This document shows, one piece after another, positions 17,929-41,646 of a stretch of DNA of 64,000 nucleotides. The notes beneath the pieces were generated by a model, which was given only the letters and a program-made list of their open reading frames with translations, had not been told where the DNA came from and did no database searches. The position numbers and the translations under genes were made by a program. How positions within the stretch are numbered: position 1 is the first letter of the stretch; each line of letters opens with the position of its first letter. The stretch spans positions 62,001-126,000 of the forward strand of contig JASHNW010000085.1 in the NCBI GenBank assembly GCA_030041435.1, read 5' to 3'. Source of the DNA: Acidobacteriaceae bacterium (lineage in GTDB: Bacteria > Acidobacteriota > Terriglobia > Terriglobales > Acidobacteriaceae).

Positions 17929-18972
17929 TCAGTGTCCATAGCCTGCTTCCGCGGATACTTTACCGCGGAACAGGCGATAGGACGTAATAAAGTATCCGAG
18001 CGCCAGAATCAGGCCGATCGTCCACCAGACGAGGCCCACGTGGAGCGAGTGCGGCCCGGTGAGCGCATTGGCAACGGTAATGTCTCGCGCGGGATCGCCG
18101 GACGACGGCAGCAGCGTGGGATACAAGCCCGCCGCGGCGCCCACCAGCATGAACACCAGATACAGGCACGACGACAGAAACGCCGCCAGCGGCCTCTGCT
18201 GCTTCGTAAAGCTCAGCATCCCGATCAGCATGGCCACCACCAGCAGCGGAATCGCGAACAGCGCCGGGTGCGCCCTGTAATTGTCGAGCACGGAGGGCCG
18301 CACTGCGATGGTGGCGGGCAGGCTGATAAACGTGACCAGCAGCAGCACGATCCACAGGCCGCCGGCGGCGCGGCGAGCGCGATTCTCCAGTTCGCCCGGA
18401 GCCTTGAGCGCCAGCCACAGCGCTCCATGGGTGGCCAGCGCAACCAGAGCGACCACTCCTCCGATCACGGTGTACCAATCGAGAATGCCGGGCTGCGCGC
18501 CGACTCTCCAGTTGGTCCACAAGGGCAGGAAGAAATACTGGTCGGGACCGAGCGGCACGCCGCGAATCACGTTGGCCAGCGCCGCCCCGAAGAAGATCGC
18601 CAGCAGAGCGCTGGCCACGAAGAACAGCCCGTCGAAGAAGCTGCGCCAGACATGGTCGTCGATGTGCATGCGCAGCTCGATGCTGGCGCCGCGGCCGATC
18701 AGCAGCCACAGCACGATCATCAGCGGCAGATAGAATCCGCTGAACGACGATGCGTAGAGCAGCGGGAACGCGAAGTACAGCGTGCCGCCGCCGGCCAGCA
18801 GCCACACCTCGTTGCCGTCCCACACCGGGCCAATGGAGCGCATCAGCATGCGCCGGTCGTCTTCCGAGCGGGCCAGAAAAGGAGAGAGGATGCCGACGCC
18901 GAGATCGAATCCGTCGAGCACGACGTAGGCGGCGATCATCACCGCGACTATCCAGAACCAGACAAACCCCAT
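17929..18972 (-). CDS. cydB: Cytochrome bd ubiquinol oxidase subunit II
   Basis: 347 residues, about eight transmembrane segments. The N terminus [25 protein letters not shown] and the following [27 protein letters not shown] are diagnostic of CydB, including the conserved Trp/Asp/Glu residues near heme d. CydB pairs with CydA in the inner membrane to oxidise quinol and reduce O2 with high affinity. It lies 16 bp after cydA and before the acyl-CoA synthetase gene, all on the minus strand, so one operon is likely. No CydX-like small ORF was recognised. Confidence 0.97.
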
Positions 18973-18988: not shown

Positions 18989-20344
<1,356 letters not shown>

Positions 20345-20380
20345 ACCATCCTCAAGGTAGCCGGGAGGGGGCGCCGGCTC

Positions 20381-20396
20381 TGTGACCCTTGTCACA
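20381..20396. promoter_or_regulatory. Crp/Fnr-type palindrome upstream of cydAB
   Basis: TGTGACCCTTGTCACA is a perfect TGTGA-N6-TCACA palindrome, centred 44 bp before the cydA start codon. The half-sites match the Crp consensus more than the classic Fnr one. The same layout recurs before the decaheme, hydrogenase and universal-stress genes in this window. No poly-A/T or other obvious promoter box is seen at the activator distance, so activation or repression cannot be told. Confidence 0.65.
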
Positions 20397-21542: not shown

Positions 21543-22991
21543 CTATTGTAAATGCAGCTCGTTCTGCAGGCCCAGGTCGTTCAGCACCCCGGGATTCGTC
21601 TCGTCGACAGCCAGCAGATTGTGGCACAGGCTGCAGTCGTTGCTCAGCGTCTTGCCGCTCTTCGTCGTGTGGCTGCCGTCATGGCAGCGGAAGCATCCTG
21701 GGTACGCCATGTGCCCGATGTTGTTCGGGTAGGTGCCCCACGTGACCTTCATATTAGGAAAGACGTTGCGGTCGTAGAGGGACACCAGCTTGTTCGCCGC
21801 CGCGTCCACCTGCGCGCGCTGCCCGCTCCACACCTGCGGGTACTGCGAGCGGTAGAAGTCGTCGAGACCCGCAACGATCTTCTGGCCCGCCTCGGCCTGC
21901 GAGGTGTAGGTGGCCTGGATCAGCTGCAGACCTTCCTTGTGCACAAACGGCAGGCTGGGACTGGGCGTGCCGCTGACCATGGCTTCGTCGATCGCATCCG
22001 CGGCCGTCTGGAAAACATGGGTCGCCTGATTGTGGCAGTCGATGCAGTCCATGGTGCGGCGCACTCCCTGGATGGGGCCCTTCCAGTCGGAGCTGACGTA
22101 CTGGGCCGTCGTGCCGTCGGGATTCGGTGCGCTGACCGAAATGATGGTCTGCAGGGTGTTATCCGTGGCCACGTATTCGAAGTGGTTGAGGTGGTGCCCG
22201 TGGATGCCGCTCAGGTGCGACACCGAATCGACGCCGCCCAGGTGCAGCACCAGCACCGTCCGGGTGAGCGAATTTTTTTCGTCGTCGCCGAAGGTCGTCT
22301 TCACCAGCAGCTTCTCGCCGCTGAAGCGTGTCGGCGAGTGGCACTCCTCGCAGGTTTCGCGCGCCGGGCGCAGAGCGTTCAGGTTGGCCCGGATGGGCGC
22401 CGGCCAGGTATGGAACGTCACTTCCACCATCTGTTTCGTTCCGTTCACCTTGGCCTCCACATAGGAATCGAAGCCGGACCCCACGTGGCACTCGACGCAG
22501 TCCACGTGCGAGTGCGGCGACTCCTGATACGCCGACCACTGCGGCGCCATCACATGGCAGCTCTGCCCGCAGAAGTGCGGCGAATCCATGTACGCGACCG
22601 CGCGATACGAGGCTGTGCCCACAATGACGAAGTTGACGAACGTCGCCACCACGACCACTTCGATGCCGCGCCGGAAAACCGGGTTCTGCAGATCGATTTG
22701 AGGATAAGCCGCAGGCACCTCTCCCCTGGCGATCAGGCTGCGCCGGCGCAGACCCATGCCGATGGGGATGAGGATGAGCCCAAGAATGAAGAGTCCCGGC
22801 AGAAATATATCGAAGATCAGCCCGAGGTAAGGATTGGTCGAACCGCCATGGCCGAAGATCGATACCACCCAGAAGCCGATCAGCACGAAGGCTGAGGCGC
22901 TGGTCAGCGCTCCGCCCAGCAGGCTAAGGGGATTGTTTCCATAGAACAGAATTGGCCGAAGGGTCTTCTCAACTCTTTTGAAATCCAGCAT
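21543..22991 (-). CDS. NapC/NirT-type membrane-anchored hexaheme cytochrome c (quinol dehydrogenase-like)
   Basis: 482 residues. Two or three hydrophobic segments at the N terminus (PLSLLGGALTSASAFVLIGF; PGLFILGLILIPIGMGL; VVVATFVNFVIVG) anchor it in the inner membrane. The periplasmic part has one C-x3-C-H site with a following Met (FCGQSCHVMAP) and five CXXCH sites (CVECH, CEECH, CIDCH, CFRCH, CSLCH). The first site plus Met resembles the quinol-proximal heme of NrfH/NapC and of Geobacter ImcH. Its likely job is passing electrons from menaquinol to periplasmic cytochromes. It is the last gene of the multiheme operon, 7 bp after the cytochrome b gene. The partner acceptor is inferred. Confidence 0.85.
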   Translation of the reverse strand: MLDFKRVEKTLRPILFYGNNPLSLLGGALTSASAFVLIGFWVVSIFGHGGSTNPYLGLIFDIFLPGLFILGLILIPIGMGLRRRSLIARGEVPAAYPQIDLQNPVFRRGIEVVVVATFVNFVIVGTASYRAVAYMDSPHFCGQSCHVMAPQWSAYQESPHSHVDCVECHVGSGFDSYVEAKVNGTKQMVEVTFHTWPAPIRANLNALRPARETCEECHSPTRFSGEKLLVKTTFGDDEKNSLTRTVLVLHLGGVDSVSHLSGIHGHHLNHFEYVATDNTLQTIISVSAPNPDGTTAQYVSSDWKGPIQGVRRTMDCIDCHNQATHVFQTAADAIDEAMVSGTPSPSLPFVHKEGLQLIQATYTSQAEAGQKIVAGLDDFYRSQYPQVWSGQRAQVDAAANKLVSLYDRNVFPNMKVTWGTYPNNIGHMAYPGCFRCHDGSHTTKSGKTLSNDCSLCHNLLAVDETNPGVLNDLGLQNELHLQ

Positions 22992-22998
22992 GCAGCCC

Positions 22999-23901
22999 CT
23001 ATCCCGCGATGTACGCGCTCAACGTCAGAATCAGGAGGGTCAGGCCAATCAATATAGCCGTAAACCCCACCACTCGCGAGAAATTTATCAACCAGTGAGG
23101 GGGTGCGTCTGTGATCCTTGTCGCAGACTTCCCCTCGCTCTGCATCCGCTGGTACTCCTCCGGTCGCCGGCTTTTGAACTCCTCTTCGCTCTCGCGTCCG
23201 GTGAAGATCACCATGTCCATGGGAAAGCTGTCCGGGCGCAGGTGCGTATTGACGAAGTGAATGGAGAAGATGAAAAGGATGGCCAGCAACCCTTCCTCAC
23301 TGTGAATCACCAGGGCCGCGTTCAGCGCCCAGCCGGGCAGGAAGCGCGCAAAAAAGGGCGCGAACCACATCGCGTAGCCGGAGAAGCCGATGACTACCAT
23401 CCCCCAGAACACCGCCCAGTAGTCGAACTTCTCCCAGTACGCATAGCGCTCGAACTCCGGCTTCGGCCCCAAACCGAGGAACCAGCGCATGTGTCCGAAG
23501 AGGTCCTTCACGTCCTTCCAGTTGGCCACCATGGACGTCGGCCCCCAGAAGATTCCCTTCTCGCGTTTGAAGATGCCGCGCGCCACGATCTCGCGCACGT
23601 GTATGAGGAACGCGAGGGTGAGGACCAGCGCGCAGAATTTGTGGAAGAAAAGGATGGTGCCGAAACCGTCCACAAGTCTGGCGGTGCGGATAGCCCACAC
23701 CGAGCCGCTGAAGCGCATGGTCAGACCCGTGGCCGCCAGCACCAGAAATGTCGTGAACAGAACGGCATGCAGGTAGCGCTGCCCCAGCGTGAAGCGGAGA
23801 AAGTACCGCCCTTTCGCCTCGGGCCCAGCAGCGGCCGCGTCCGTCTCTTCTGGCTGGATGGCTTCTTCCGGCTGGATTACAGACTCCACAGGCTCAGGCA
23901 T
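22999..23901 (-). CDS. Membrane cytochrome b (FdnI/HydC-like diheme), partner of the 11-heme protein
   Basis: 300 residues. Four or more transmembrane helices with paired His ligands are seen: LGQRYLHAVLFTTFLVLAATG, LFFHKFCALVLTLAFLIHV, DYWAVFWGMVVIGFSGYAM and HSEEGLLAILFIFSIHFVNTH. This is the fold of formate dehydrogenase/hydrogenase gamma subunits, which carry two b hemes and exchange electrons with quinone. The start follows GGGAGGAAAAA and overlaps the upstream 11-heme gene by 8 bp. Together the two genes look like a split version of the single fused protein at 25691-27853. A final hydrophobic helix (VVGFTAILIGLTLLILTLSA) is extra. Confidence 0.85.
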   Translation of the reverse strand: MPEPVESVIQPEEAIQPEETDAAAAGPEAKGRYFLRFTLGQRYLHAVLFTTFLVLAATGLTMRFSGSVWAIRTARLVDGFGTILFFHKFCALVLTLAFLIHVREIVARGIFKREKGIFWGPTSMVANWKDVKDLFGHMRWFLGLGPKPEFERYAYWEKFDYWAVFWGMVVIGFSGYAMWFAPFFARFLPGWALNAALVIHSEEGLLAILFIFSIHFVNTHLRPDSFPMDMVIFTGRESEEEFKSRRPEEYQRMQSEGKSATRITDAPPHWLINFSRVVGFTAILIGLTLLILTLSAYIAG

Positions 23902-25105
23902 TTTTTCCTCCCGCCGGCTTGTTTTTGACCTGCTGGAACCTGGAGCGGACCAGCCACAGAAAGGTGTGCAGCAGGAAGAATGTCAGCACGCTGGCGAGCA
24001 GCAGGTTCATAAACAGCCGGATGTAGTAGAGCGCCGGATTCAGCCTGCGATTGCGCGCGTTGGCATGCGGCTGATATTCGACAAAGCTCGCGTTCGCGCC
24101 GGCGTGACAACGGCCGCACGTCTTCACCAGGTTGGCTTTGGCGATGGGCGAGCTCGGATCGGATGCAGGCAGAACATCGTGCGCCTCGTGGCAGTCCCAG
24201 CACCTCGCCGTCTCCACATAGCCTCCCAGCAGGCCGAGCTGCGAGTGGAACGTATCGCGGTACGTGGAAAATTTATCGCGGTGGCAGTTGCCGCAGACCG
24301 GCGTCGACTGCATGCGGAAATCCGCCGAGGTCGGCTCCAGAATGCCGTGCGCCGTATGGCAGTCGGTGCAGACCGGCGCGTCCTTGTTCCCCGCGGCGAC
24401 GGCCTTGCCGTGCACGCCCTGCTGATACTGCTCGTTGATGCCGACGTGGCAGGTGCCGCACGTTCCCGGGATATTCGTCCGGTACGTCGAGCTCTGCGGA
24501 TCACTGTGGCTCAGAATCTTGTGCGAGCCGTGGCAGCTCGTGCAGTTGGCCGCCACCAGCAGCCCTTCCCTGCCGATCGCGAAGCCGTGAATGGAGTCGA
24601 TGTAGGTCGCGTAGACATTGTTCAGACCGTACCTCTTCGCCATGTCTGCGTTGGCATGGCAAGCTCCGCACGTTTTAGGGATGTTGAGCGGATAAACCGG
24701 CGAATTCGGATTTGTCTTCGGGACAATCTCGTGCTGGTTGCCGTGGCAGGTCAGGCACGCGTTCGGGGTCCCCTGGGGTGACTGCTCGCCGGCCTTCGCG
24801 TGGACGCTGCCGCTCAGCCCCGCTGCCTCGTCGGCGTGGCAGGTTTCGCACTGCACAGCCGCCGGCTGGTCAGGATGCGGATACCCCTTGATGTCGGCGT
24901 GGCAGTTGGTGCATGCCAGGCTGCCGTGGACGCTCGCGTGGAACTTGCCCGCATCGACGCCGATGCTGTGGCCGCCCGCGTCCTGCATGGTCGGGTCGCC
25001 GTGACAGCTGAGGCAGTCGGTCTGCGCGTGCAGCGGACGCGCCGGCAGGGCCAGAAACACCCCCGACACAAAAAAAGTCAGGGCAAAGGAGGAAACAGTC
25101 TTCAT
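23894..25105 (-). CDS. Secreted 11-heme c-type cytochrome with C-terminal membrane anchor
   Basis: 403 residues. The signal peptide ends at LPARPLHAQ. Eleven CXXCH motifs are spaced evenly (CLSCH, CTNCH, CETCH, CLTCH, CGACH, CTSCH, CGTCH, CTDCH, CGNCH, CWDCH, CGRCH), with extra His residues as distal ligands. Near the C terminus MNLLLASVLTFFLLHTFLWLV is a membrane helix with a short cytoplasmic tail. The N-terminal DCLSCHGDPTMQDAGGHSI region matches the start of the 13-heme domain in this locus. It should sit on the periplasmic face of the inner membrane, taking electrons from the cytochrome b encoded by the overlapping next gene. Such b/c pairs resemble Geobacter CbcL functionally (inference). 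Confidence 0.88.
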   Translation of the reverse strand: MKTVSSFALTFFVSGVFLALPARPLHAQTDCLSCHGDPTMQDAGGHSIGVDAGKFHASVHGSLACTNCHADIKGYPHPDQPAAVQCETCHADEAAGLSGSVHAKAGEQSPQGTPNACLTCHGNQHEIVPKTNPNSPVYPLNIPKTCGACHANADMAKRYGLNNVYATYIDSIHGFAIGREGLLVAANCTSCHGSHKILSHSDPQSSTYRTNIPGTCGTCHVGINEQYQQGVHGKAVAAGNKDAPVCTDCHTAHGILEPTSADFRMQSTPVCGNCHRDKFSTYRDTFHSQLGLLGGYVETARCWDCHEAHDVLPASDPSSPIAKANLVKTCGRCHAGANASFVEYQPHANARNRRLNPALYYIRLFMNLLLASVLTFFLLHTFLWLVRSRFQQVKNKPAGGKNA

Positions 25106-25211: not shown

Positions 25212-25532
25212 CTATTTCTGCAGCGTGCGGATAAAGGAGACGACTTCCTTGATCTGGTCATCGGTCAGTTTGCCGTTGTACGCCGGCATCTTGCCTTTCC
25301 CATCTTTGGTGACGGCGATCAGCTCGGCGTCCGATGCCTTGACCACGCTGGGATCCTTGAAGGACGGGATCTTCATCATTTTTCCCATCGGTGTCGCTGC
25401 GGTGCCGTCGGGACCATGGCACATCTGGCACTTGGCTTTGTAGGTGTCGGCGCCGGCGCTCTGTGCGAAAACAGGCGCCGCAATGGACGCGGCGAGCAGA
25501 ATCATAGCCGCGGTTCTGATGGGATGCTTCAT
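25212..25532 (-). CDS. Periplasmic monoheme class I cytochrome c (second copy)
   Basis: 106 residues. A signal peptide (AAMILLAASIAAPVFAQ) precedes a single CQMCHGPDGTAATPMG heme site, the Met-bearing segment GKGKMPAYNGKLTDD supplies the axial Met, and QIKEVVSFIRTLQ is the closing helix of small cytochromes c. It is a soluble periplasmic electron shuttle. The ATG follows AAGGAG. It is clearly paralogous to the protein at 28034-28354 (same length and same C-terminal helix), and each copy precedes a multiheme/cytochrome b unit. Confidence 0.92.
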   Translation of the reverse strand: MKHPIRTAAMILLAASIAAPVFAQSAGADTYKAKCQMCHGPDGTAATPMGKMMKIPSFKDPSVVKASDAELIAVTKDGKGKMPAYNGKLTDDQIKEVVSFIRTLQK

Positions 25533-25690: not shown

Positions 25691-27853
25691 TCAGTCCTGG
25701 CCCTCGCCTTTGGCCTTGCCGGGCTCGCCTGCGGGATCGCCGCTCCCCGGCCTCCCACTCGCAGATTCTTCCCCGGCCAGTTCGCGGACCTCGTGTTCCG
25801 GCGCGCGCCCCGTCAGGAAAGTCCACTTCACCGGGTAGATCTCCGGGTCGAAAATGACCGCATAGAAATGCCAGATCAGGATGGCCAGCGTGGCCAGAAT
25901 TGCTTCAAAGAAATGGATTGCGGTGCTGATGGCCAGAATCGAGGCCGGATGCGGCAGATGGGCCAGAATCCAGTCGTTGAGCCACAGCGCGACCCCGGTC
26001 GCTGCCATCACCGCGGTTCCCCACACCAGCGCCCAGTATTCCGCCTTCTCTACATAGTTGAAGCGCCGGTAGCGGGGCAGCTGGTCGCGGCGGCCCAGGT
26101 TGTATTCCACCGTCTGCACCGCCTCTTTGGCGTCGCGCAGGTCGGGCACCATGTCTTTGAGCCAGCGGCGGCCGCTCTTCTTCAGCGTGAGATACACCAC
26201 GTGGTACACCGAGGCCCCGATCAGCACCACGCCGGCGATGCGATGGATCCAGCCCCGCACCGGGTAGCCGTGCTCCCAGTCGACAAAGGGCGCCGCCCAG
26301 AACGCATGCGGGAATTTGAGCGCGAATCCGGTGATGACCAGCACGATGAAGCTGACCAGCAGTACCGCGTGCTGCACGCGCTCGTTGAGGGTCATGCGCG
26401 GCTGGCCGCCCGCCTTGCGATCGTGCGCCAAAGAAGCTTTCGCCTTGCGCCGCCAGTCGAGGAAGTTGTGCAGCAGCATCAGCCCCAGCGTGACCGGGAT
26501 GACGATAAGGTAGAAAACTTTGACGAATTCGAGCACCCGTCCGCCCGTCGTCTTCGTCGACATTGCATGGACCGGCCCGATGGCGAAACGCCGGCCGGCG
26601 TCCGTGTGGCACTGACCGCAGGTCTTGCTCAGGTTCGCCTTGTTCACCGTGGATCGCGGGTCGCGGGACGGATAGATATTGTGCACGCCGTGGCAGCTGG
26701 CGCAGTTGGCCACCGTCTGCCGGCCCTCGTGCGCGGCCAGACCGTGGTAACTGTCTTCATACGTCGGCACGCGGTCCTGCGGCATGGCAAAGCCCGCCAT
26801 CAGCTGGGTATCCGCGTGGCAGCGCGAGCATGCCTCCTGCGCAACATTGGCCATGTAGACCGGCGACCCCGGATCGCCAGGCGCCAGGATCCTGTGCTCG
26901 CTGTGGCAGTCGGTGCAGGTAGCCGCCTGCAGGACCCCCCTGGCCACTGCCTGCCCATGAATGCTCTGTGCGTAGGAGTTGTAGACGCCTGCATGGCACT
27001 TGCCGCAGGTTGCGGCGACATTCTGCTTCCAGATCTTCGAGCGCGGATCGGAAAGCGGCAGGATATCGTGCGTGCCGTGGCAGTCGCTGCACGACGCGGC
27101 GTTCAGGTTGCCGCTCTGGATGGCCCGCCCGTGCACGCTCTGGCGCCAGGCTTCGACCGGGCGCACTTCGGTGAACATGTATTTTGCCGCCAGCTTCGCG
27201 TTCGAGTGGCACGACCCGCAGGTATCCGGCAGATTCCGCTTGTTGACCGGGGAGTGCGGATCGCTCGCCGTGAGCACAGCGTGGGTCGACCCGTGGCAGC
27301 TCTGGCAGGTAGGCACATCCGCATTGCCGTGATCGAGCGCCCGGCCGTGAACGCTGGCCTTGTATTGCGCCACTTCGTCCGCGTGGCAGCTCGCGCAGAA
27401 CTGCGTGCCGGCTGCCGCCCTGGTCACATTGTTCGTTCCATGGCAGGCAATACAGGTAGCGGAGTCGTTCGGATTGCCCAGCGCAGCATGCGCGCTGGCC
27501 GCGAGCGCCTTCGCCGCATCGGCGTGGCACTCCACACAGGACGCGGAGGCGTTTTTTGCATTATGCGTCTGAGCCGTCGCGCCCGCGTGGCAGTCCGTGC
27601 AGCCGAAGCTGCTGTGCGGACCCCTCATGTGCGTGGAAGGATTGACGCTGATGTCTTTGCCCTGGGAGTTTTTCAGGCCGACCGTAGGACCGTGACAGGT
27701 GAGGCAATCGGAACTTTGTTGCGCGCGGGCGGGGAGGTTGAGGAAAACAAGGAACAGAAAACAGAGGAGGACTGGGTGACAGAGGGTCGCACTTCCGGTT
27801 CTGTGAGGAGCCCTGCATCGCTCCGCACGCAGGTCTGCCGCATGGATCCCCAT
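25691..27853 (-). CDS. 13-heme cytochrome c fused to a cytochrome b membrane domain (CbcL-like)
   Basis: 720 residues. After a hydrophobic export segment (LLCFLFLVFLNLPARAQ) come thirteen CXXCH motifs within about residues 45-435, the first in DCLTCHGPTVGLKNSQGKDI and the last in TCGQCHTDAGRRF. A membrane helix (VFYLIVIPVTLGLMLLHNFL) leads to a b-type cytochrome domain with His-bearing helices (ERVQHAVLLVSFIVLVITGF; RGWIHRIAGVVLIGASVYHVV; ISTAIHFFEAILATLAILIWHF). The fused c-plus-b plan is that of Geobacter CbcL, an inner-membrane quinol oxidase for extracellular electron transfer. The start at 27853 has GAAGGAAC upstream; the N-terminal 25 residues before the signal are Arg/Cys-rich and unusual. 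Direction of electron flow is inferred. Confidence 0.88.
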   Translation of the reverse strand: MGIHAADLRAERCRAPHRTGSATLCHPVLLCFLFLVFLNLPARAQQSSDCLTCHGPTVGLKNSQGKDISVNPSTHMRGPHSSFGCTDCHAGATAQTHNAKNASASCVECHADAAKALAASAHAALGNPNDSATCIACHGTNNVTRAAAGTQFCASCHADEVAQYKASVHGRALDHGNADVPTCQSCHGSTHAVLTASDPHSPVNKRNLPDTCGSCHSNAKLAAKYMFTEVRPVEAWRQSVHGRAIQSGNLNAASCSDCHGTHDILPLSDPRSKIWKQNVAATCGKCHAGVYNSYAQSIHGQAVARGVLQAATCTDCHSEHRILAPGDPGSPVYMANVAQEACSRCHADTQLMAGFAMPQDRVPTYEDSYHGLAAHEGRQTVANCASCHGVHNIYPSRDPRSTVNKANLSKTCGQCHTDAGRRFAIGPVHAMSTKTTGGRVLEFVKVFYLIVIPVTLGLMLLHNFLDWRRKAKASLAHDRKAGGQPRMTLNERVQHAVLLVSFIVLVITGFALKFPHAFWAAPFVDWEHGYPVRGWIHRIAGVVLIGASVYHVVYLTLKKSGRRWLKDMVPDLRDAKEAVQTVEYNLGRRDQLPRYRRFNYVEKAEYWALVWGTAVMAATGVALWLNDWILAHLPHPASILAISTAIHFFEAILATLAILIWHFYAVIFDPEIYPVKWTFLTGRAPEHEVRELAGEESASGRPGSGDPAGEPGKAKGEGQD

Positions 27854-28033: not shown

Positions 28034-28354
28034 CTACTTCTGCAGGGTCCGGATGTAAGCCACGACGTCGTGAATCTGGTCGTCGGTCAGCTTGCCCGCG
28101 TAGCCCTGCATCTTGCCCACACCCTCTTTGGTGTCCTTAAACAATTCGGCGTCGGTCGCCTTCACATCTTCGTCCGACTTCAGCGAGCGAACCTTCATCG
28201 CCTTGCCTGCCGGAGTGGCGCCGAGTCCGTCGGCTCCGTGGCACATCGCACATTTGGCTTTGTAGGCGGCTTCGCCGTTCTGTTGCCCCATCGCCGGAAT
28301 GGCCAGAGAGACTGCGAGCAGGGTAAATACTGCGATTCGGCCCAGCTGTTTCAC
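28034..28354 (-). CDS. Periplasmic monoheme class I cytochrome c (first copy)
   Basis: 106 residues from a GTG start with AAGGAG upstream. The signal peptide ends AIPAMGQ. The single heme site is CAMCHGADGLGATPAG, the axial Met is probably in GVGKMQGYAGKLTDD, and the protein ends DVVAYIRTLQK. Small cytochromes of this kind move freely in the periplasm, here presumably between the inner-membrane cytochrome b/c proteins and the decaheme. It lies between the outer-membrane barrel gene and the 13-heme fusion gene. It shares more than half of its mature residues with the copy at 25212-25532 by eye. Confidence 0.92.
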   Translation of the reverse strand: MKQLGRIAVFTLLAVSLAIPAMGQQNGEAAYKAKCAMCHGADGLGATPAGKAMKVRSLKSDEDVKATDAELFKDTKEGVGKMQGYAGKLTDDQIHDVVAYIRTLQK

Positions 28355-28413: not shown

Positions 28414-31029
28414 TCAGAATTCGTAATGCATTCCGAGGGTCACATTGTTCGCGTGGAAGTTCCGCGGCGCGGTTTCTCCTGAACTCGGCAGGGTCAGGCC
28501 CGTTTGCAGTCCGGCCAGCGAAGACGAGTTGCAGGGAACGACCGGCGACGGACTGGTGGGAGTGGGACCGACCGTGGTGCAGTAAGGCGCACCGGAGGGC
28601 CCGCCCTCGCCGTAGCCGAAGTAGTTGTATTCCGCCTTCCAGATGAATCCGGGATGGACCGTCCAGGCCAGGTTGACGAAAGGCGACTGATACGTGGAAA
28701 CCAGCGAGCCCGCGACGTCGCGTGCGTCGTTATAGAAGCGGGTGCCGTCCACAGAACTGACGCGATAGCCCAGGTTGGAGTGCAGGGTTTTGGACGGAGC
28801 CAGATAGAGGGCTACCGAGCCGGACTGCGTCGGAGCATCCATGAAGTCCTTCGCCGGGCCGAAATCCCACGTCCCGCCGCGGTTGGCGGCCGTGGCCGGG
28901 CACGCGGTGCCGCTGGGCGTCGCGGCGGCCGGCAGCGTGGCGCCGGCTCCGCCGAGATAGCAGATATTCGTCGCCGTGTACACGTCGCTGTAGGCGTAGT
29001 CGAAATCCACCCCGTAGCGCTCCGTGGGCATCAGCGTCGCGGCGGTGGTTACCACCCGGCTGTGCGCAACGTGATCGAGCGGACCGTCGAGCGGGGCGAT
29101 GCCGGTATTGTTCGTGTTGTTGTGCAGCTCCATGTCGTTGTACGCGCCGGAGAGGGTCGCCCACGACTTCGGCTTGTACAGGGCGTGCAGCCGGTAGTGC
29201 TGCTGCTCCCGCGGAGCCACCGGGGTGAAGACGTTGTCGGCATAGAGCACCTCCAGCGAGCCGTCGACATTCCACTGGCTGGTCGGGCGCAAAGCAACGT
29301 TCAGGATTCCGCCGTTCTGGTTGATGGTGACGGTTCCGCTGCCGGTGGGATTGGTGAAATTGGCGGGCAGGTTACCGGGCTCGGTCACAGCCAGCGCAGT
29401 GCTGTGCGGAATGCCCTCGGCGATCACCTGTTTGCGGTAGCGATACGTGAGCGAAACCGTGGCGCGCGACCAGCCGTACCAGGTCGCCGTCGCATCGTTG
29501 GTCAGGAACTTCTGACCGAAGAAGTCCGGCAGAGGCGTGCCGATGACGCCGCTGCCCTCGTAGGTGGAGGCGCCGGCTGCAGAGGCTTTCGAAGTCAGTC
29601 CGGCAGCGTTGACCGTTTCATTGCCGGCCGTCGCGGGCGTCGACACCGTGGTCAGGCTGGTCATGGTGGCCGTGCCCGGCTCCTGCGCGTGAGAGAAGGT
29701 AATCGCATCCGACACGCTCAGCTGCTGGCTGGCCTGCCAGTCGATGCCGTAATCGATCGCCGTGACCTCGCGCTTTGCGCTCGCCGTGGCCGTGTAGATC
29801 AGCTCGCGGGTCGTTTTCGCCAGCCCCTGGAAATTCTCGTAATAGCTGGGCAGGCTCATGTTTGCGCTGGTGTAACGCACATCGCCGTTCATCGTGACAT
29901 TGCGGAGACTCGAGCTCTGGAAGCGGAAGATCTCGGTGGGATAGAGGATGCGCGTGGGCTGATAGCGCTGGTAGCTGAGCACCACCGCGCATGCCGGATT
30001 CACCACCGGCAGACCGCCGGGTGTAGCCGGAGCGGACAGCACCGGCGTCGTGCCGACGCTGTTGGCGTTGCAGGCGCTGCTGGCGTAGGGCGTCAGGCTG
30101 TCGTAGTTGGCCAGCAGGGCGGCTTTGGTTCCGTCCGGCTCCTGCACCCTGAAGTAAGCGGGATCCATGCTGAAGTACGAATCCGCCTTGAAGTGGTCGA
30201 CCTGCTCCTCATACGTCAGCTTCGTAGCGCGCACGGGCTTCCAGTCGATGGCGCCGAAGAAGCGGTCGGTGCTGTTGCGCTGCATCTCCTGAAGCAGGAC
30301 GTCGTAGGAGCCGGCGAACTGGTAGCCGCTCGGGGTCAGGCTCGGCCCGGCAAAGATGTCCTGCGAATAACCCGCCCGGAAGCTCACCTTCGACAGCGGA
30401 AGCAGAGTCGCGCTGGTGTCCGTCATGCGGCGCACGGTGTTGAACAGGAATGGCGACTTCGTAACCTGCGGCCAGGCATAGGAGCTGGTGGGTGCTGTGG
30501 CGGGCCCGATGGGGATGGACTGCCCCGACGGAATGTTCGGGTTGCCGAGCAGATCGTAGTCGAAGTACTGCCGGTCGCGGCGGAAGATTCCCGAGAAGTC
30601 GTAGAGCCTGCCCTTGTAAAAGTCCATGCGGGTAAAGTCGTTCGGGTCGCCCCCCCACCCGCTGCTGAACGCCGAGAGGGAATCGACCAGGGTGTTCTTG
30701 GTCCCCGGCAGCGCGCGCAGCTCAAAGGTCTCGCCCAGCACGCGCGGCCCGGACTGCTGATTGACCAGCGTGTCGTACATGGAGCCGCTCCCGGACACGC
30801 CCACAATGTGCCCGCCCAGGTCGATGGACTCGTGCAGCGTGTACCCGGCCGGCGCTACCGGCTGTGTATCCGGCGGCGGAGTCTGGACGGCGGGTGTCGC
30901 AACCTGGGCGACAGCGATGCCCGCGGTCATCAGCAAAACGGCGGCTCCAATCCCCCCCGCGATGCGCTGGACTGCTGCGCCACGGGTGTGTTGACCGGAG
31001 AGCCGAGAAAACCAGCAAATCTTCATCAT
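28414..31029 (-). CDS. Large outer-membrane beta-barrel, putative porin of an MtrB/PioB-type electron conduit
   Basis: 871 residues from ATG 31029 (AGTGAGG seven bases upstream). A long signal peptide ends AGIAVAQ. The mature chain is a run of alternating amphipathic strands with polar turns (RMDFYKGRLYDFSGIFRRDR; WATLSGAYNDMELHNN; TLHSNLGYRVSSVDGTRFYN) and ends in Phe (LGMHYEF), as outer-membrane barrels do. It is larger than Shewanella MtrB (about 700 residues). It directly follows a decaheme MtrA/DmsE-type gene, the gene order of mtrAB and pioAB, in which the barrel sheaths the decaheme through the outer membrane. Sequence similarity to MtrB itself is weak by eye; the assignment rests largely on context. 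Confidence 0.72.
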   Translation of the reverse strand: MMKICWFSRLSGQHTRGAAVQRIAGGIGAAVLLMTAGIAVAQVATPAVQTPPPDTQPVAPAGYTLHESIDLGGHIVGVSGSGSMYDTLVNQQSGPRVLGETFELRALPGTKNTLVDSLSAFSSGWGGDPNDFTRMDFYKGRLYDFSGIFRRDRQYFDYDLLGNPNIPSGQSIPIGPATAPTSSYAWPQVTKSPFLFNTVRRMTDTSATLLPLSKVSFRAGYSQDIFAGPSLTPSGYQFAGSYDVLLQEMQRNSTDRFFGAIDWKPVRATKLTYEEQVDHFKADSYFSMDPAYFRVQEPDGTKAALLANYDSLTPYASSACNANSVGTTPVLSAPATPGGLPVVNPACAVVLSYQRYQPTRILYPTEIFRFQSSSLRNVTMNGDVRYTSANMSLPSYYENFQGLAKTTRELIYTATASAKREVTAIDYGIDWQASQQLSVSDAITFSHAQEPGTATMTSLTTVSTPATAGNETVNAAGLTSKASAAGASTYEGSGVIGTPLPDFFGQKFLTNDATATWYGWSRATVSLTYRYRKQVIAEGIPHSTALAVTEPGNLPANFTNPTGSGTVTINQNGGILNVALRPTSQWNVDGSLEVLYADNVFTPVAPREQQHYRLHALYKPKSWATLSGAYNDMELHNNTNNTGIAPLDGPLDHVAHSRVVTTAATLMPTERYGVDFDYAYSDVYTATNICYLGGAGATLPAAATPSGTACPATAANRGGTWDFGPAKDFMDAPTQSGSVALYLAPSKTLHSNLGYRVSSVDGTRFYNDARDVAGSLVSTYQSPFVNLAWTVHPGFIWKAEYNYFGYGEGGPSGAPYCTTVGPTPTSPSPVVPCNSSSLAGLQTGLTLPSSGETAPRNFHANNVTLGMHYEF

Positions 31030-31131
31030 TGGAAGCCTCACTTGAAAAGCGTCGCCCACACCGAAACCCTGAACCCGATCTCTGCTGCGCCGTCCGATGT
31101 GGTTGCAGGGCACGGCGCAGCTCCACTGCGC

Positions 31132-32052
31132 CTATCGGAGAAACGCCTGGTTGATGTTCGAACCGTGAATATTGGTGTGGCAGCTGGTGCAGGGCTGCAG
31201 CTCATCCGATCCCGCTCCCATTCCCGTCACCGTGTGGTTGGCCACGCGGCTGTGGCACTGGTTGCACAGCGTGTTGATTGAAGGCATGTTCAGCATCCGC
31301 GCATTCTGCGACCCGTGCGGCGAGTGGCAGCCGAGACATCCCTCCGCCCTGACCGCCGCGTGCTCGTAGACGAACGGCCCGCGCGTCTCCGCATGGCACT
31401 TCGTGCAGATCGCGTTCTGGTCCGCCGTCGCCCGCACGTTGTTGGGCTGGAAGGTGCCGTGCACGTCGTGGCAGTCGGCGCACTTCACCACGCCCTCGTT
31501 CACCGGGTGATGGAACGGCATCCCGAATGCCGGCTTCTGGTCCGCATGGCACTGGAAGCAGAGCTCAGGCTGGCTGGCCTTCAGCAGGGCCACATCGGTC
31601 TTGGCTTCATGCACGCTGTGGCAGCTGATGCAGCTGAGATCCGCTTTCGCGTGCGGCGAGCGCTCGAAGTTCGGATGCGTTCCGGCATGGCAGCTCAGGC
31701 ACGTCTCGTCGATCTGTTTGCTGCTGGCTTTGTCGAAGCGGACAATCTTCGTGACATCTCCGCCGCCTTCCACGTGCGCCTTGCCGGGTCCGTGGCAGCT
31801 TTCGCACGTCACACCCTTGCCGGCATGTTCGAGGGCGAGACGGGAATGAGGATTCGTGCCGAACTTCTTCGCGACATCCTCGTGACAAGTGGCGCAGGTA
31901 TCCTGCCCGACGTAATCCGCCGGACTCGCTGCCGCCTTCTCCTCGGAAGCCACCGCCTGCTGCGGGCCATGACCCGCGGCCTGCGCCGGCCTGGTTCCTG
32001 TGAACCCGGTCAGCAGCAGGAGACACGCCGTACTGATTAAGAATCGACGCAT
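31132..32052 (-). CDS. Periplasmic decaheme cytochrome c, DmsE/MtrA/PioA family
   Basis: 306 residues from ATG 32052. The signal peptide is MRRFLISTACLLLLTGFTG with cleavage near AQA-A. Exactly ten CXXCH motifs follow: CATCH, CESCH, CLSCH, CISCH, CFQCH, CADCH, CTKCH, CLGCH, CNQCH, CTSCH. The opening VGQDTCATCHEDVAKKF and VTCESCHGPGKAHVEGGGD segments are hallmarks of the DmsE family, which includes MtrA and PioA. These proteins form a heme wire that threads an outer-membrane barrel and connects the periplasm to the outside. The barrel gene follows 102 bp downstream. A Crp/Fnr-like palindrome lies 117 bp upstream. No extracellular MtrC/OmcA-like cytochrome is encoded nearby. Confidence 0.92.
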   Translation of the reverse strand: MRRFLISTACLLLLTGFTGTRPAQAAGHGPQQAVASEEKAAASPADYVGQDTCATCHEDVAKKFGTNPHSRLALEHAGKGVTCESCHGPGKAHVEGGGDVTKIVRFDKASSKQIDETCLSCHAGTHPNFERSPHAKADLSCISCHSVHEAKTDVALLKASQPELCFQCHADQKPAFGMPFHHPVNEGVVKCADCHDVHGTFQPNNVRATADQNAICTKCHAETRGPFVYEHAAVRAEGCLGCHSPHGSQNARMLNMPSINTLCNQCHSRVANHTVTGMGAGSDELQPCTSCHTNIHGSNINQAFLR

Positions 32053-32426
32053 TCGTATTGACCTCGCGCAGCCGGAAGGTGGAACAGACAGCCTGCAACT
32101 CCGTCGTCCGGCTGGAATGACTGCTACATGTACTGCTGGAGAATATCGGCGGCCAGGAAACACGCTCAGTGATGCCAATCACATCGGGACATTACTTTTT
32201 GTTCAATGATTAGAACCATTTAAGAATGTCGCCCCCTGCGCCGATTGACGACGTCCTGCGGCCATCGCACGCACCGCCAGGCATCGCTAAACCCAATAAA
32301 ATGGGCCTTTCGCAACGGCTGCGATCCGCCTGCGTCAAATGGCGCAGCCCAGAAGTCCCGTTACTTTTGTTTGCTGATTTTGCCGTTGAGGTGGTGACAG
32401 TCTGTCGAAGGGGAGCTTCTGCGCGG
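32053..32426. other. 374-bp intergenic region between the hydrogenase and decaheme operons
   Basis: Contains the regulatory palindrome at 32168-32183 and, 33 bp downstream of its centre in the minus direction, TATTCT (rc of 32140-32145) as a possible -10. An A/T-rich patch at 32190-32225 (ATTACTTTTTGTTCAATGAT) lies just upstream. No ORF with coding character and no strong terminator after the maturation-protease gene was found, so read-through from the hydrogenase operon remains possible. Confidence 0.6.
32168..32183. promoter_or_regulatory. Crp/Fnr-type palindrome upstream of the decaheme/barrel operon
   Basis: AGTGATGCCAATCACA contains the perfect inverted repeat GTGAT-N4-ATCAC, i.e. GTGA-N6-TCAC. 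It is centred 123 bp before the decaheme start codon. A TATTCT hexamer is placed 33 bp further downstream, close to the spacing expected for a class II activator site centred near -41.5. Confidence 0.6.
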
Positions 32427-32945
32427 CTACCAGTACCACGCCGACTCCTGCGCGGCGAGCTGGGGCAGGACCTGAGCGTCCTCCGCCCAGTCCTCCAGCT
32501 GCCGGAGCGCAGCATCGACCAGACGCTCCAGGGCCGCCTGCGCCGGCGCGCTCAGCTGCGTGCCCCAGGCGATCTTCTGCGGCTGCACGCCCAGCACAAC
32601 GATCTCCCGAGGCGCCTCGCCGGTGAGCCGCATGGCGCCGATCAGATCCGAAAATCCCAGCAGGTGGACGCTCTTCGCAGCCGGCAAGTCGGCAATGTCG
32701 TCGCCGGCAAAGCGCAGCAGAGTTCCTGGCGGCACGCCCGTGTCGATGGCGTCCAGCGCCAGCAGGTGCGTCACGCCCGCCAGCGGATGCAGCAGATCGA
32801 GGCCCAGCGTGCCGCCCTCGATGAGGCTGACGCTCTGCGGCAGGCGAAACTCCATGCGCAGGCGCTCAAGGGCCACCATGCCCACGGCATCGTCGGCCCG
32901 CATCAGATTGCCGAGACCGACGACTGCGATGCGCGGACCGCTCAC
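32427..32945 (-). CDS. Hydrogenase maturation endopeptidase (HupD/HyaD family)
   Basis: 172 residues from GTG 32945, which overlaps the cytochrome b stop as GTGA. RIAVVGLGNLMRADDAVGMV is the family N terminus with the nickel-sensing acidic residue; SLIEGGTLGLDLLHPLAG and LLALDAIDTG supply the other conserved Glu/Asp positions, and HLLGFSDLIGAMRLTG the His-bearing helix. This protease trims the C-terminal peptide of the hydrogenase large subunit after the NiFe site is loaded. It is the last gene of the small-large-b-protease operon. The general hypABCDEF maturation genes are not in this window and must be elsewhere. Confidence 0.9.
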   Translation of the reverse strand: MSGPRIAVVGLGNLMRADDAVGMVALERLRMEFRLPQSVSLIEGGTLGLDLLHPLAGVTHLLALDAIDTGVPPGTLLRFAGDDIADLPAAKSVHLLGFSDLIGAMRLTGEAPREIVVLGVQPQKIAWGTQLSAPAQAALERLVDAALRQLEDWAEDAQVLPQLAAQESAWYW

Positions 32946-33733
32946 CGGTCCCACGTCCGATTGCGGTGGATTCTGCGCTTCCCGAAGAGCTGCCGCGGCT
33001 CCAGCGCCGCGATCTCCAGTTCCTCGTCGATCGTTTCGTCGGTTACGAATTTGTAACCGCTGAAGACACTTTCCATCTCGGCGTTGCGCTCCGTTATGGC
33101 CACCAGGACCGCGCTGTACACGTGGTGGATAAAGAACGCCATCAGGAAGAACATGAACAGGAAGTGCACCAGGCGGATCCACTGAATGTCGATGATGGGC
33201 GGAATCCAGCCCACGAAGAACTTCAGCACCGGCGAGCCTTCGACGGCCTCGAACAGCACCAGGCCGGATACGCATTCGCACGCAATCATGAAATACACGA
33301 TGATGTAGGTGAGCCCGGCCAGCGTGTTGTGCCCGATCTGCTCGAAGGGCTTCCGCTGCTGGAAGGTGTAATAGCGCACCATCGCCTTCAGGCTTTCCCA
33401 CCGCCGCCGTGTCAGGGGCAGAAACTGCCGCCAGCGCGCCCAGTGGTTGCCCGCGAAGAACCAGTAAAACCGAACGATCAGCGCTCCGATCAGCTCAAAG
33501 CCCGCCAGTTCGTGGATGAAACGCACCGTCCCCATGGTCCACGCTGTCTTGTGCGGGAAGATGAGGAACGGATGGTTCAGGTAAAGGCCGGTCCAGGTCA
33601 GCACGGTTACCGCGGCCACGATGCCCCAGTGGGCCAGACGCACCGGCAGCTCCCACACATAGACGGGAACGAGGTGCTCCTGCCCTTCCGCTACATGCCG
33701 GCGCGGAACGAACGGGTTCACGATGCTGACCAT
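32942..33733 (-). CDS. [NiFe] hydrogenase cytochrome b subunit (HyaC/HupC family)
   Basis: 263 residues. PVYVWELPVRLAHWGIVAAV begins the first helix with a heme His; further helices are FIHELAGFELIGALIVRFYW, GHNTLAGLTYIIVYFMIACE and LVHFLFMFFLMAFFIHHVYS, the last carrying paired heme ligands. This subunit anchors the periplasmic hydrogenase and passes electrons to quinone through two b hemes. It overlaps the large-subunit stop by one base (TGATG) and the protease start by four. The C-terminal 45 residues are a charged tail (VTDETIDEELEIAALEPRQL) ending RNRTWDR, longer than in E. coli HyaC. Confidence 0.93.
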   Translation of the reverse strand: MVSIVNPFVPRRHVAEGQEHLVPVYVWELPVRLAHWGIVAAVTVLTWTGLYLNHPFLIFPHKTAWTMGTVRFIHELAGFELIGALIVRFYWFFAGNHWARWRQFLPLTRRRWESLKAMVRYYTFQQRKPFEQIGHNTLAGLTYIIVYFMIACECVSGLVLFEAVEGSPVLKFFVGWIPPIIDIQWIRLVHFLFMFFLMAFFIHHVYSAVLVAITERNAEMESVFSGYKFVTDETIDEELEIAALEPRQLFGKRRIHRNRTWDR

Positions 33734-35511
33734 CACAGGCCCCCGAAGACCGGCGCTGCAGGAGCCGGAAGAAGCGACGTGGATCCCTCCGGTTCCGGCA
33801 TGGCCATTGCTTCATGGCCGTACCTGCGGCCCTTCCCGTCGATCACGTGCACGGCGCAGGCCAGGCAGGGATCGAAGGAATGCACCGTGCGCAGTACCTC
33901 GAGCGGTCGCTCCGGATCGGCGATGGGCGTGTTGACCAGAGCGGCCTCATAGGCGCCGCGCTGGCCCTGCGCATCGCGCGGTCCCGCGTTCCATGTGGAA
34001 GGCACAATGGCCTGGTAGTTGACGATCTTTTTGTTCTCGATCTCCACCCAGTGCCCCAGCGAGCCACGCGGCGCTTCTTCGAGGCCAAACCCGGCGCAGG
34101 ACCTCGGCCAGCTTTCCGGATCCCACTTGTCCCCGTTGTGGATGCGCACGTCGCCGTGCGCCATGTTGTCGTCCAGCTGCGCGATCCAGTCGGGCAGCTT
34201 CTGCACCACGATATCCGCCTCGATGGCGCGCGCCGCGATGCGGCCCAGCGTCGAGAACAGCACCGTTGGCGGGGCGTTGAAGTGGGCCAGCACGCCATCG
34301 ACGGTATTCTTCACCTGCTCGTCGCCGGAGGCGTAGGCGATCAGCGTCCGCGCCAGCGGTCCCACTTCCATCGGCTTGTCGTCGTAGCGCGGCGATTTCA
34401 GCCAGGAGTATTTCGCCTCCGTGTCGAGCTGCTCGAACGGCGGCTTGGGTCCGGAATACTTCGGATTCGTCTCGCCCTTCGCCGGCGGCAGGCTGGCCTG
34501 ATCGCCCACCGAGTAGTCGTACCAGGAGTGCGCGACGTATTCGGTGATCCTGCCCGCATCCACCGGATGCACCGTGCCCAGATCGCGGCCCAGCAGCACG
34601 CCCCGCGGGAAGAAGAAGCCCGCCGGATCGTCGATGCTGCCCGCCGGCATGTCCCCGTAGGCCATGAAGTTGCCGAGGCCTTCTCCGTAGCCGAACCATT
34701 CCTTGTAAAAGCCGGCGACGGCCAGAACGTCGGGGACATAGACCTGCTGGACGAAGGTTTTGGCGCGAGCCGCAAGCTCATTAAAGAGCGTGATGCGTTC
34801 CGGATTAATGACCGCTTCCGGCTCGTTGCCATCGATTGCGGTAGACATCCCACCCACCAGGTACGTCTGCAGGTGTGGATTTTTACCGCCCAGGACCGCG
34901 TGGATGCGAATGAAATCCCGCTGCATATCAAGCGCTTCGATGTAATGCGCGACAGCAAGCAGGTTCGCTTCCGGCGGCAGTTGGTAAGCAGGGTGTCCCC
35001 AGTCACCGCTGCTAAAGAGAGACAACTGCCGGCTGGCCACGAGGGCCTTGACACGGTCCTGGACACCCTTAAAGTAGACAGCGCTCGACTTCGGCCATTC
35101 CGAAATCGACTGCGCAAGCTGCGAAGTCTTTGCCGGATCGGCCTTGAGGGCGAGGGTGACATCCACCCAGTCAAGCGCATGGAGATGGTAGAAGTGAACA
35201 ACGTGATCCTGCACGTTCTGCGCGCCCGCGATGATGTTGCGGACCAGCCGCGCATTGTCAGGAATGTCGATGCCGAGAGCGTTCTCGACTGCGCGCACTG
35301 AAGCCAGCGCGTGCACCGTGGTGCAGACGCCGCAGATGCGCTGGGCCCAGATCCACGCCTCGCGCGGATCGCGCCCCCGCAGAATCAGTTCGATCCCGCG
35401 GAACATGGTGCCGGAGCTCCACGCGTCGGTGACGCGGCCTCCGTTTACCTCTGTCTCGATGCGGAGGTGGCCTTCAATGCGCGTTACCGGATCGATCACG
35501 ACTCGCGCCAT
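33733..35511 (-). CDS. [NiFe] hydrogenase large subunit (group 1 uptake type)
   Basis: 592 residues from ATG 35511, GGAGGT upstream. The N-terminal NiFe ligands are C60 and C63 in RICGVCTTVHALASVRAVE and the C-terminal ones C549 and C552 in SFDPCLACAVH, giving the full four-Cys NiFe(CN)2CO site. The start VVIDPVTRIEGHLRIE is typical. The peptide after H555, expected to be cut off by the HupD-type protease encoded downstream, is 37 residues long and Pro-rich (AMPEPEGSTSLLPAPAAPVF), longer than the roughly 15-25 residues usual in the family. It pairs with the small subunit and is co-exported by its TAT signal. Confidence 0.96.
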   Translation of the reverse strand: MARVVIDPVTRIEGHLRIETEVNGGRVTDAWSSGTMFRGIELILRGRDPREAWIWAQRICGVCTTVHALASVRAVENALGIDIPDNARLVRNIIAGAQNVQDHVVHFYHLHALDWVDVTLALKADPAKTSQLAQSISEWPKSSAVYFKGVQDRVKALVASRQLSLFSSGDWGHPAYQLPPEANLLAVAHYIEALDMQRDFIRIHAVLGGKNPHLQTYLVGGMSTAIDGNEPEAVINPERITLFNELAARAKTFVQQVYVPDVLAVAGFYKEWFGYGEGLGNFMAYGDMPAGSIDDPAGFFFPRGVLLGRDLGTVHPVDAGRITEYVAHSWYDYSVGDQASLPPAKGETNPKYSGPKPPFEQLDTEAKYSWLKSPRYDDKPMEVGPLARTLIAYASGDEQVKNTVDGVLAHFNAPPTVLFSTLGRIAARAIEADIVVQKLPDWIAQLDDNMAHGDVRIHNGDKWDPESWPRSCAGFGLEEAPRGSLGHWVEIENKKIVNYQAIVPSTWNAGPRDAQGQRGAYEAALVNTPIADPERPLEVLRTVHSFDPCLACAVHVIDGKGRRYGHEAMAMPEPEGSTSLLPAPAAPVFGGL

Positions 35512-36641
35512 CACCGCACCTCCGTCGTTTGTTTTTCAGCCAGGGTTGTTTCCAGTGCGGATCCGTCGCCATTTCCGGGATGGAAGTGATCGCGCACGAC
35601 GTGGCCCACGGCATGGGCTGCCGTTGCTGCGGCTACGCCGGCCACCACCGTCCAGCCGATTTGACCGGCCGTCACATCCACGCCGAACCCCGCCGGATGC
35701 GGCAGCCGCTCGTAGAACGGCGATTTCGTGTCCCAGAAGCGCGGCGACGCGCACGCGATGCAGCCGTGTCCGGACTTCACCGGCCAGCTGGTCGCGCCGT
35801 TCCAGCGCACCGTGGGGCAGTTGTAATTGGCCTCCGGGCCCTTGCAGCCCATCTTGTACAGGCACCAGCCCTTGCGATGCCCTTCATCGCCCCACGCCTG
35901 CACGTAGCGGCCGGCATCGTAGTGCGCGCGCCGTTCGCACTGGTCGTGAATCAGCTGCCCATAGGCAAACAGCGGCCGGCCTTCGCCATCCAGCGCCGGC
36001 AGAACGCCAAAGGTGAGGTAGTGCACCAGCACCGCCGCCGTGTTGACGGAATTGTGCGGGCAGCCCGGCAGGTTCACGATGTTAATGCCCGGAACCGCCT
36101 CATGCAGCCCTGCCGCGCCGGTCGGATTCGGCCCGGCTTTCGGCAGCCCGCCATCCCACGCGCACGCGCCCACCGCGATCGTCGCCGCCGCCCCGCGGCA
36201 AACTTTGCTCGCAATGTCCATCGCCGTCCGGCCGCCGATGGTGCAGTACACACCGTCGTCCGCGGTCGGAATCGAGCCTTCCACCACCACCAGATACTTG
36301 CCCTTCTCCTCACGCACCACCCGCTCCAGCGCCGCTTCGGCGTGCTTCCCGTAGCCGGCCATGATGGTCTCGTGGTACTCCCAGGAAAGCGTCTCGAGAA
36401 CGATGTCTTCTACTGTTGGGTGCGTCGTGCGGATCATCGATTCGGTGTTGCCCGCGCAGTCCTGAAACTCCAGCCATACCAGAACCGGCTTGCGCTTCTG
36501 TGTCAGGGCCTCGGCGATGGTTTGCGAATACGCCTTTGGCAATGCCAGGGTCGCGGCCATGGTGCCGCAGAACTCCATGAACCGCCGGCGCGAAATCCCG
36601 CGCCTTTTGCATGTCTCCAGAACCGATTCTTCTGCGGCCAT
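35511..36641 (-). CDS. [NiFe] hydrogenase small subunit with TAT signal and altered proximal-cluster site
   Basis: 376 residues from ATG 36641 (GGAGG upstream). The twin-arginine signal is S17-R-R-R-F-M22. In the proximal-cluster motif, FQDCAGNTES, C62 is present but the second ligand (Cys in CTGCSES-type proteins) is N65. The two later proximal Cys are present (VGACAWDGG; NLPGCPHN). The distal-cluster ligands IHDQCERRAHYD and GWCLYKMGC and the medial-cluster YNCPTVRWN and GHGCIACASPRF are all intact. A C-terminal helix (GWTVVAGVAAATAAHAVGHV) anchors the enzyme. It relays electrons from the NiFe site to cytochrome b on the periplasmic face. The supernumerary Cys of O2-tolerant enzymes (CTCC, GC) are absent. 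Confidence 0.95.
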   Translation of the reverse strand: MAAEESVLETCKRRGISRRRFMEFCGTMAATLALPKAYSQTIAEALTQKRKPVLVWLEFQDCAGNTESMIRTTHPTVEDIVLETLSWEYHETIMAGYGKHAEAALERVVREEKGKYLVVVEGSIPTADDGVYCTIGGRTAMDIASKVCRGAAATIAVGACAWDGGLPKAGPNPTGAAGLHEAVPGINIVNLPGCPHNSVNTAAVLVHYLTFGVLPALDGEGRPLFAYGQLIHDQCERRAHYDAGRYVQAWGDEGHRKGWCLYKMGCKGPEANYNCPTVRWNGATSWPVKSGHGCIACASPRFWDTKSPFYERLPHPAGFGVDVTAGQIGWTVVAGVAAATAAHAVGHVVRDHFHPGNGDGSALETTLAEKQTTEVR

Positions 36642-36711
36642 CCGGCCCTCCGCCTGTATGCGATTTCCGGGGATTCGCAACAGACCCTATCGCCGGAGAA
36701 AAGCACCTGTA

Positions 36712-41403: not shown

Positions 41404-41646
41404 TTCTGTTGTAACGCGAATGATACCTCCCGGTCAATGCACTGCCTAAGCTCGGAACTGGATGAAATCCTGCCGCATCTCTATGAAATTGAATTATTTA
41501 TCTGGTGATCAACGTTTGATCGAAAAAAGGCTCACTATGCATTGCCGGTCGTATGCGCGAACGAGTGTAGTTCACGCTGGCTCCGCAGTACGCAAAAGTA
41601 CAGGATTCGAATCTGCGGACACCGCAACGATTTTGGAGGCAACACA

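Follow-up and report, generated by a model that had tools for sequence, protein, structure and literature searches.

A decaheme cytochrome and a divergent MtrB-type barrel form a candidate outer-membrane electron conduit in Acidobacteriaceae

The window analyzed here, a 64,000-nucleotide stretch of the genome of a soil-dwelling member of the Acidobacteriaceae (assembly GCA_030041435.1, contig JASHNW010000085.1, positions 62,001 to 126,000), encodes on its minus strand an MtrA/DmsE-type decaheme c cytochrome (31132..32052) and then, about 100 bases beyond the stop codon of that gene, an 871-codon outer-membrane barrel (28414..31029) that appears to be a deeply diverged branch of the MtrB-type barrels, outside the named families. 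We interpret the pair, with a probability of about 0.72, as an MtrAB-type conduit through the outer membrane that would carry electrons outward, in a reducing role. Sequence and structure prediction support the pair itself, the MtrA homology, the remote MtrB homology and fold, the fixed pairing, and the gene neighborhood; conduction, complex formation, disulfide bonds, direction, and acceptor are what we infer. The window belongs to contig 23 of a genome (G000; 5.77 Mb, 99.7% complete, a 134-contig draft) whose closest kin are Acidobacterium-like metagenome-assembled genomes. Our genome-wide cytochrome inventory consists of profile searches of this assembly, and the breadth of the barrel family was measured within Acidobacteriota, in 396 sampled genomes and in 80 genomes of the window's own family.

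An earlier note on this DNA had described a decaheme followed by an 871-residue barrel, and both halves of that description hold. From an ATG at 32052 the first gene encodes a 306-residue precursor, within an open reading frame (31132-32178) that stays open upstream to 32178. The protein has exactly ten CXXCH motifs, compared to a mean of 0.12 and a maximum of 2 in 2000 residue shuffles of the same protein. It belongs to TIGR03508 (264.9 bits, cut-off 192.2), is the sole protein of the genome above that cut-off, and aligns over its full length (residues 29-300) with MtrA (6R2Q chain A, E 2.9e-40); by homology, the window decaheme is an MtrA-type protein. At three related loci (L132 2076-3221, L142 2001-3146, and L146 1415-2560), the barrel-paired cytochrome has 11 rather than 10 CXXCH motifs.

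The barrel is 871 residues long, signal peptide included, when read from an MM start (the frame is open upstream to 31113), and it is single-copy in the genome. It has no match in the Pfam, NCBIfam, or PHROGs profile libraries. The earlier note had proposed a profile search against MtrB and PioB, and both profiles, TIGR03509 and PF11854, are silent on the window barrel, leaving it outside these families; on TIGR03509, typical MtrBs of Acidobacteriota in the same library reach 280-405 bits. The search for relatives of the barrel first turned up 16 close ones and then more distant members throughout the Acidobacteriota (48 of the 396 sampled genomes); within the window's family, 39 of the 80 genomes have the barrel. 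With the distant members added, profile-profile comparison by hhalign matched the barrel family to MtrB at E-values of 2e-20 and 4e-25 (5e-25 and 2e-28 after re-alignment, over about 600 columns). Controls using LptD, which is also a 26-strand barrel (PMC7198977), or the other family's alignment reversed gave E-values no better than 1.7e-3, with the caveat that values of 1e-6 are possible when a family is compared to its own reversed alignment. The window-type and distant sets are linked at 5e-51 or better, and the MtrB set itself matches 6r2q_B at 2e-103. An AlphaFold2 model built on a 59-sequence alignment (predicted local distance difference test, pLDDT, 81.4; predicted template modeling score 0.77) has 26 strands by count; a first model, from a 16-sequence alignment, was dropped at a pLDDT of 39. 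The top PDB match of the accepted model in a Foldseek search is MtrB 6r2q_B (E 8e-13, TMt 0.69), and the remaining barrels in the top 50 have a TMt of 0.46 or less. Given the profile-profile matches with their controls and the predicted fold, the barrel is best described as divergent MtrB-type, and it falls within the MtrB superfamily in the wide sense of MtrB homology, a 26-strand barrel, and an adjacent decaheme. The suggestion in the earlier note of a larger barrel from a separate family with the same role was right about the size and about the silence of the MtrB/PioB profiles, but the family is not unrelated to MtrB.

Across the phylum, the barrel keeps a decaheme beside it. Among distinct relatives, the decaheme gene lies immediately upstream of the barrel gene in 62 cases; three loci have no upstream decaheme, two of them (L019 and L073) stopping at a contig edge and the third (L145) having a decaheme directly on the other side, and a decaheme adjoins the barrel at every relative that could be checked. 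Among the carriers of the pair is a cultivated relative, Bryocella elongata DSM 22489 (L023). In a tree of 86 decahemes, a single branch (support 100/100) separates the 62 partners of the new barrel from the 24 partners of MtrB, a split by barrel type that was recovered in 200/200 bootstrap trees. Both kinds of conduit occur together in some genomes: one locus (L130 3635-12758) has one OmcA/MtrC gene and then a decaheme, a new-type barrel, a decaheme, and an MtrB in tandem. An OmcA/MtrC gene lies directly upstream of the decaheme-barrel pair in five loci (L129, L130, L143, L147, and L163) and farther away in another (L165). Of the genomic evidence, this trio speaks most strongly for the barrel acting in the role of MtrB. 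Since an OmcA/MtrC gene immediately precedes this pair in other Acidobacteriota, the missing extracellular cytochrome in the window is a trait of the lineage and not of the barrel family.

In the window itself, a six-frame scan for open reading frames with at least two CXXCH motifs returned only the decaheme (ten), a 13-heme/b561 fusion, an 11-heme membrane-anchored protein, and an ImcH-like protein (five, with one CX3CH), and no OmcA/MtrC lipoprotein is among them. The absence of such a lipoprotein nearby, already remarked on in the earlier note, extends to the whole genome and to the 80 family genomes, none of which has a protein above the TIGR03507 cut-off; an MtrC homologue elsewhere that pairs with another MtrAB, which that note had named as a finding that would tell against its interpretation, is thus missing from the genome at this cut-off, and the locus does not qualify as MtrCAB. 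Matches to PF22113, an MtrC/MtrF domain, were not used as evidence of MtrC, as its cut-off is also exceeded by the decaheme and by the 13-heme fusion. Transmembrane electron transfer can be achieved by MtrAB alone (PMC4245776), and a missing MtrC therefore does not preclude function.

The extra length of the barrel lies in its predicted extracellular loops, according to the model and the alignment. Median lengths in window-type barrels and in other families are 66 and 13, 40 and 13, 46 and 7, 37 and 14, and 42 and 21 residues, while the sole periplasmic turn measured is almost unchanged in length. The first three of these loops, all encoded on the minus strand, span mature residues 247-306 (29986..30165), 648-683 (28855..28962), and 767-815 (28459..28605), and each has two cysteines (278/305, 648/668, and 775/791, respectively) that are invariant in 18/18 window-type sequences and may form disulfides. 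The remaining Acidobacteriaceae barrels mostly have the first two cysteine pairs and other families almost none; several cysteines are also found in some MtrB barrels. A strict link between gaining cysteines and losing MtrC is not upheld, since many other-family barrels without a nearby MtrC have zero cysteines.

The genes around the pair, all on the minus strand, are largely concerned with electron transfer. On its downstream side are a small monoheme cytochrome c of 106 residues (28034..28354; PF13442 and PF00034), probably a periplasmic shuttle, with a counterpart close to the pair in many relatives; a 13-heme c-type and b561 fusion (25691..27853; PF01292, 60.8 bits), a putative CbcL-like quinol oxidase or quinone reductase by comparison with the CbcL architecture (PMC6295460), in which 13 CXXCH motifs precede about four transmembrane segments by hydropathy, compared to a criterion of six for the b-type domain; and a second small monoheme cytochrome c (25212..25532), with a cytochrome c at the same place in four related loci (L010, L011, L020, and L024). 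An 11-heme cytochrome with a C-terminal membrane anchor (23894..25105; CXXCH count and profile scan) follows with its probable partner, a b561-type membrane cytochrome (22999..23901; TIGR01583, 30.1 bits; PF01292, 29.3 bits, just below the cut-off). Beyond them is a putative ImcH-like quinol oxidase with a NapC/NirT domain (21543..22991). ImcH proteins are defined by three N-terminal transmembrane helices, one CX3CH, and 5-9 CX2CH (PMC6295460), and the window protein, likened to Geobacter ImcH by this description, has transmembrane-like segments at residues 22-40, 57-75, and 105-123, a CX3CH at 141, and five CXXCH. The series ends with subunits I (18989..20395; PF01654, 498 bits) and II (17929..18972; PF02322, 290 bits) of a cytochrome bd oxidase.

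On the upstream side of the pair are a NiFe hydrogenase small subunit with an RRxF Tat-like signal (35511..36680; TIGR00391, 408 bits, and PDB matches), the large subunit (33733..35514; PF00374, 756 bits), a hydrogenase b-type cytochrome (32942..33736; TIGR02125, 124.1 bits, cut-off 121.5), and a HyaD/HybD-like maturation protease with an approximate start (32427..32936; TIGR00072, 125.6 bits, cut-off 47.45). At a position where CTGC is found in the aligned 1h2a chain, the small subunit has CAGN, and a cysteine that normally serves as a ligand of the proximal iron-sulfur cluster thus seems to be replaced. The same overall arrangement is seen in L010, L011, L020, and L024, within the reach of their contigs. 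Across 29 loci, 13 have an ImcH-like gene within 7 kb and 5 a CbcL-like one, 14 have a small cytochrome c within 3 kb, and 4 have a hydrogenase large subunit within 9 kb. In another Acidobacteriaceae genome (L151 4129-14100), the hydrogenase large subunit and protease are directly upstream of the decaheme, with the small subunit and a b561 on the opposite strand. Farther along the window, the plus strand (41542-45075) encodes a large TonB-type barrel (OMP_b-brl_4) that includes a carboxypeptidase-like regulatory domain; its neighbors are an alpha-amylase-family gene and a GH115 gene.

These genes suggest a path for electrons. The quinone pool would be fed by organic carbon and, in the window's lineage, by the adjacent H2-uptake hydrogenase, and its electrons would leave through the ImcH-like and CbcL-like quinol oxidases. 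Small cytochromes c could then ferry them over the periplasm to the decaheme, which would thread the 26-strand barrel as a ten-heme "insulated wire" across the outer membrane, with Fe(III), humics, or comparable compounds as the final acceptors. The enlarged, cysteine-paired loops may serve as the outer surface in place of an OmcA/MtrC cap.

Several observations weigh against this interpretation. The window-type barrels alone give no match to MtrB in profile-profile comparison (probability 5%), so the link depends on intermediate relatives; homologues of CbcL, MtoC, and MtrH are found in both Fe(III) reducers and Fe(II) oxidizers (PMC6295460), so the sequence does not fix the direction of flow; and secreted-looking 11- and 16-heme proteins encoded elsewhere in the genome could be outer partners of the pair. 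The silence of PF11854 and TIGR03509 on the window barrel might suggest a barrel unrelated to MtrB, such as a transporter, that stands next to a decaheme by chance. This is hardly credible and is already contradicted by the controlled hhalign matches, the fold search headed by MtrB, the fixed pairing with a decaheme across families, and the mtrC trios of relatives. An outer partner outside the OmcA/MtrC family is unlikely. On contig 133 (L026 9249-13900), 16-heme, 4-heme, and 11-heme cytochromes, possibly secreted, are clustered with NHL/six-bladed propeller proteins; by eye, the 16-heme (517 residues) and 11-heme (630 residues) proteins each start with a signal-like stretch and lack an obvious membrane anchor. 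In the 80 family genomes, the 11-heme protein and the barrel are found together more often than expected (22 with both, 17 with the barrel only, 8 with the cytochrome only, and 33 with neither; Fisher p 0.001, uncorrected for shared ancestry), but it is missing in 17/39 barrel-bearing genomes, including the single-contig G407 and G434, and the contig-133 genes are unlinked to the pair. Other cytochromes away from the window, with 5 to 8 hemes and some with TPR-like tails, are found on contigs 1, 28, 82, 87, and 124 (L027-L031 and L036).

Direction is the other question, and the earlier note had considered an inward role to be as possible as metal reduction. The two do not appear equal: outward, reducing flow is favored by the neighboring ImcH- and CbcL-like oxidases, uptake hydrogenase, and bd oxidase, by the lack of any RuBisCO found in the genome, and by Fe(III) reduction in relatives, having been reported for Acidobacterium capsulatum and Acidicapsa, both Acidobacteriaceae (PMC8790237). 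In an inward conduit, Fe(II) or another outside donor would send electrons in through the pair, reducing the quinone pool or the small cytochromes c. Inward flow is known for both PioAB and MtoAB, with PioAB operating without MtrC (PMC8805035), and CbcL-type proteins are present in Fe(II) oxidizers too (PMC6295460). The four COX1 homologues of the genome offer a possible electron sink, but the same ImcH-type neighbors, linked hydrogenase, and missing RuBisCO make inward flow distinctly improbable. At acid pH, moreover, Fe(II) is too weak a quinone donor without reverse electron flow. Membership of the decaheme in TIGR03508, which is named for DmsE, might instead suggest a DmsEF-like module feeding an extracellular terminal reductase rather than minerals; however, that family also includes MtrB-paired and trio-type decahemes, so the name says nothing about substrate, and with no reductase gene beside the pair among the window genes examined, we give this alternative very little weight.

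Taken further, the reading of the pair as an outward conduit leads to a scenario that we regard as possible though doubtful: Acidobacteriota may have a second, anciently separated MtrAB lineage, of which the Acidobacteriaceae lost or never had MtrC, with enlarged, disulfide-stapled loops as the outer contact; the ten-heme wire would then directly reduce humics or acid-soluble Fe(III) and, through a single gene cluster, draw electrons from H2. MtrA-like decaheme genes in Acidobacteria were noted earlier as possibly belonging to Fe reducers (PMC3669403), PioA/MtoA homologues have been noted in Acidobacteriia (PMC10654088), and a small acidobacterial MtrCAB group is known (PMC8805035). In the literature searched, from which subscription literature was excluded, we found no description of the separate barrel branch, its phylum-wide pairing, or the linkage to ImcH-like and hydrogenase genes. 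Surveys based on MtrB/PioB profiles or on mtrC will miss these pairs, given a family present in 48/396 Acidobacteriota and 39/80 family genomes and a window genome that is PF11854-negative. The linkage to ImcH-like and CbcL-like genes also provides a candidate outer-membrane exit for ImcH-bearing acidobacteria, whose mtrAB neighbors were reported absent (PMC6295460), and bears on the question of which organisms are responsible for the reduction of iron and humics in acidic soils and peat.

Compared to known systems, the pair resembles Shewanella MtrAB (MtrCAB, PDB 6R2Q) in its ten-heme MtrA homologue followed by a predicted 26-strand barrel and, in some relatives, in the OmcA/MtrC trio. It differs in a barrel missed by TIGR03509 and PF11854, with large outer loops and paired cysteines, in a decaheme from a clade apart from the MtrB-paired ones, in the lack of MtrC in the window's lineage, and in ImcH/CbcL-like proteins instead of CymA as the putative quinol oxidase. 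Like PioAB and MtoAB, it combines a decaheme and a barrel without an extracellular cytochrome, but the barrel is on a different branch, the neighborhood favors outward flow, and the 306-residue decaheme precursor has no room for the long N-terminal extension of PioA; no PioC high-potential iron-sulfur protein is among the annotated neighbors, although no dedicated search for one was run. Geobacter GSU2203-GSU2204 (OmcK and its partner), which is upregulated 1.5-2.7 fold at the transcript level with hematite or magnetite (PMC4070692), likewise combines a decaheme and an outer-membrane barrel that is not part of the core MtrB family. Membership in that group was rejected (the decaheme scores 220.7 bits on NF041028 against a cut-off of 325, and the window barrel has no NF041027 match), and in the cases compared standard MtrBs match NF041027 better than the new barrels do. 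Geobacter ImcH and CbcL share with their window counterparts, respectively, three transmembrane helices with CX3CH and CXXCH motifs, and a multiheme c-type part with a b-type membrane domain; CbcL has 9 hemes compared to 13 in the window protein, and the window's ImcH-like protein is encoded beside the decaheme-barrel pair, whereas no mtrAB was found adjoining imcH previously (PMC6295460). Acidobacteriia MtrCAB group 5 is also an outer-membrane conduit in Acidobacteriota, but the survey that defined it required mtrC, mtrA, and mtrB matches in one cluster (PMC8805035), and pairs with the new barrel and no MtrC therefore fall outside it.

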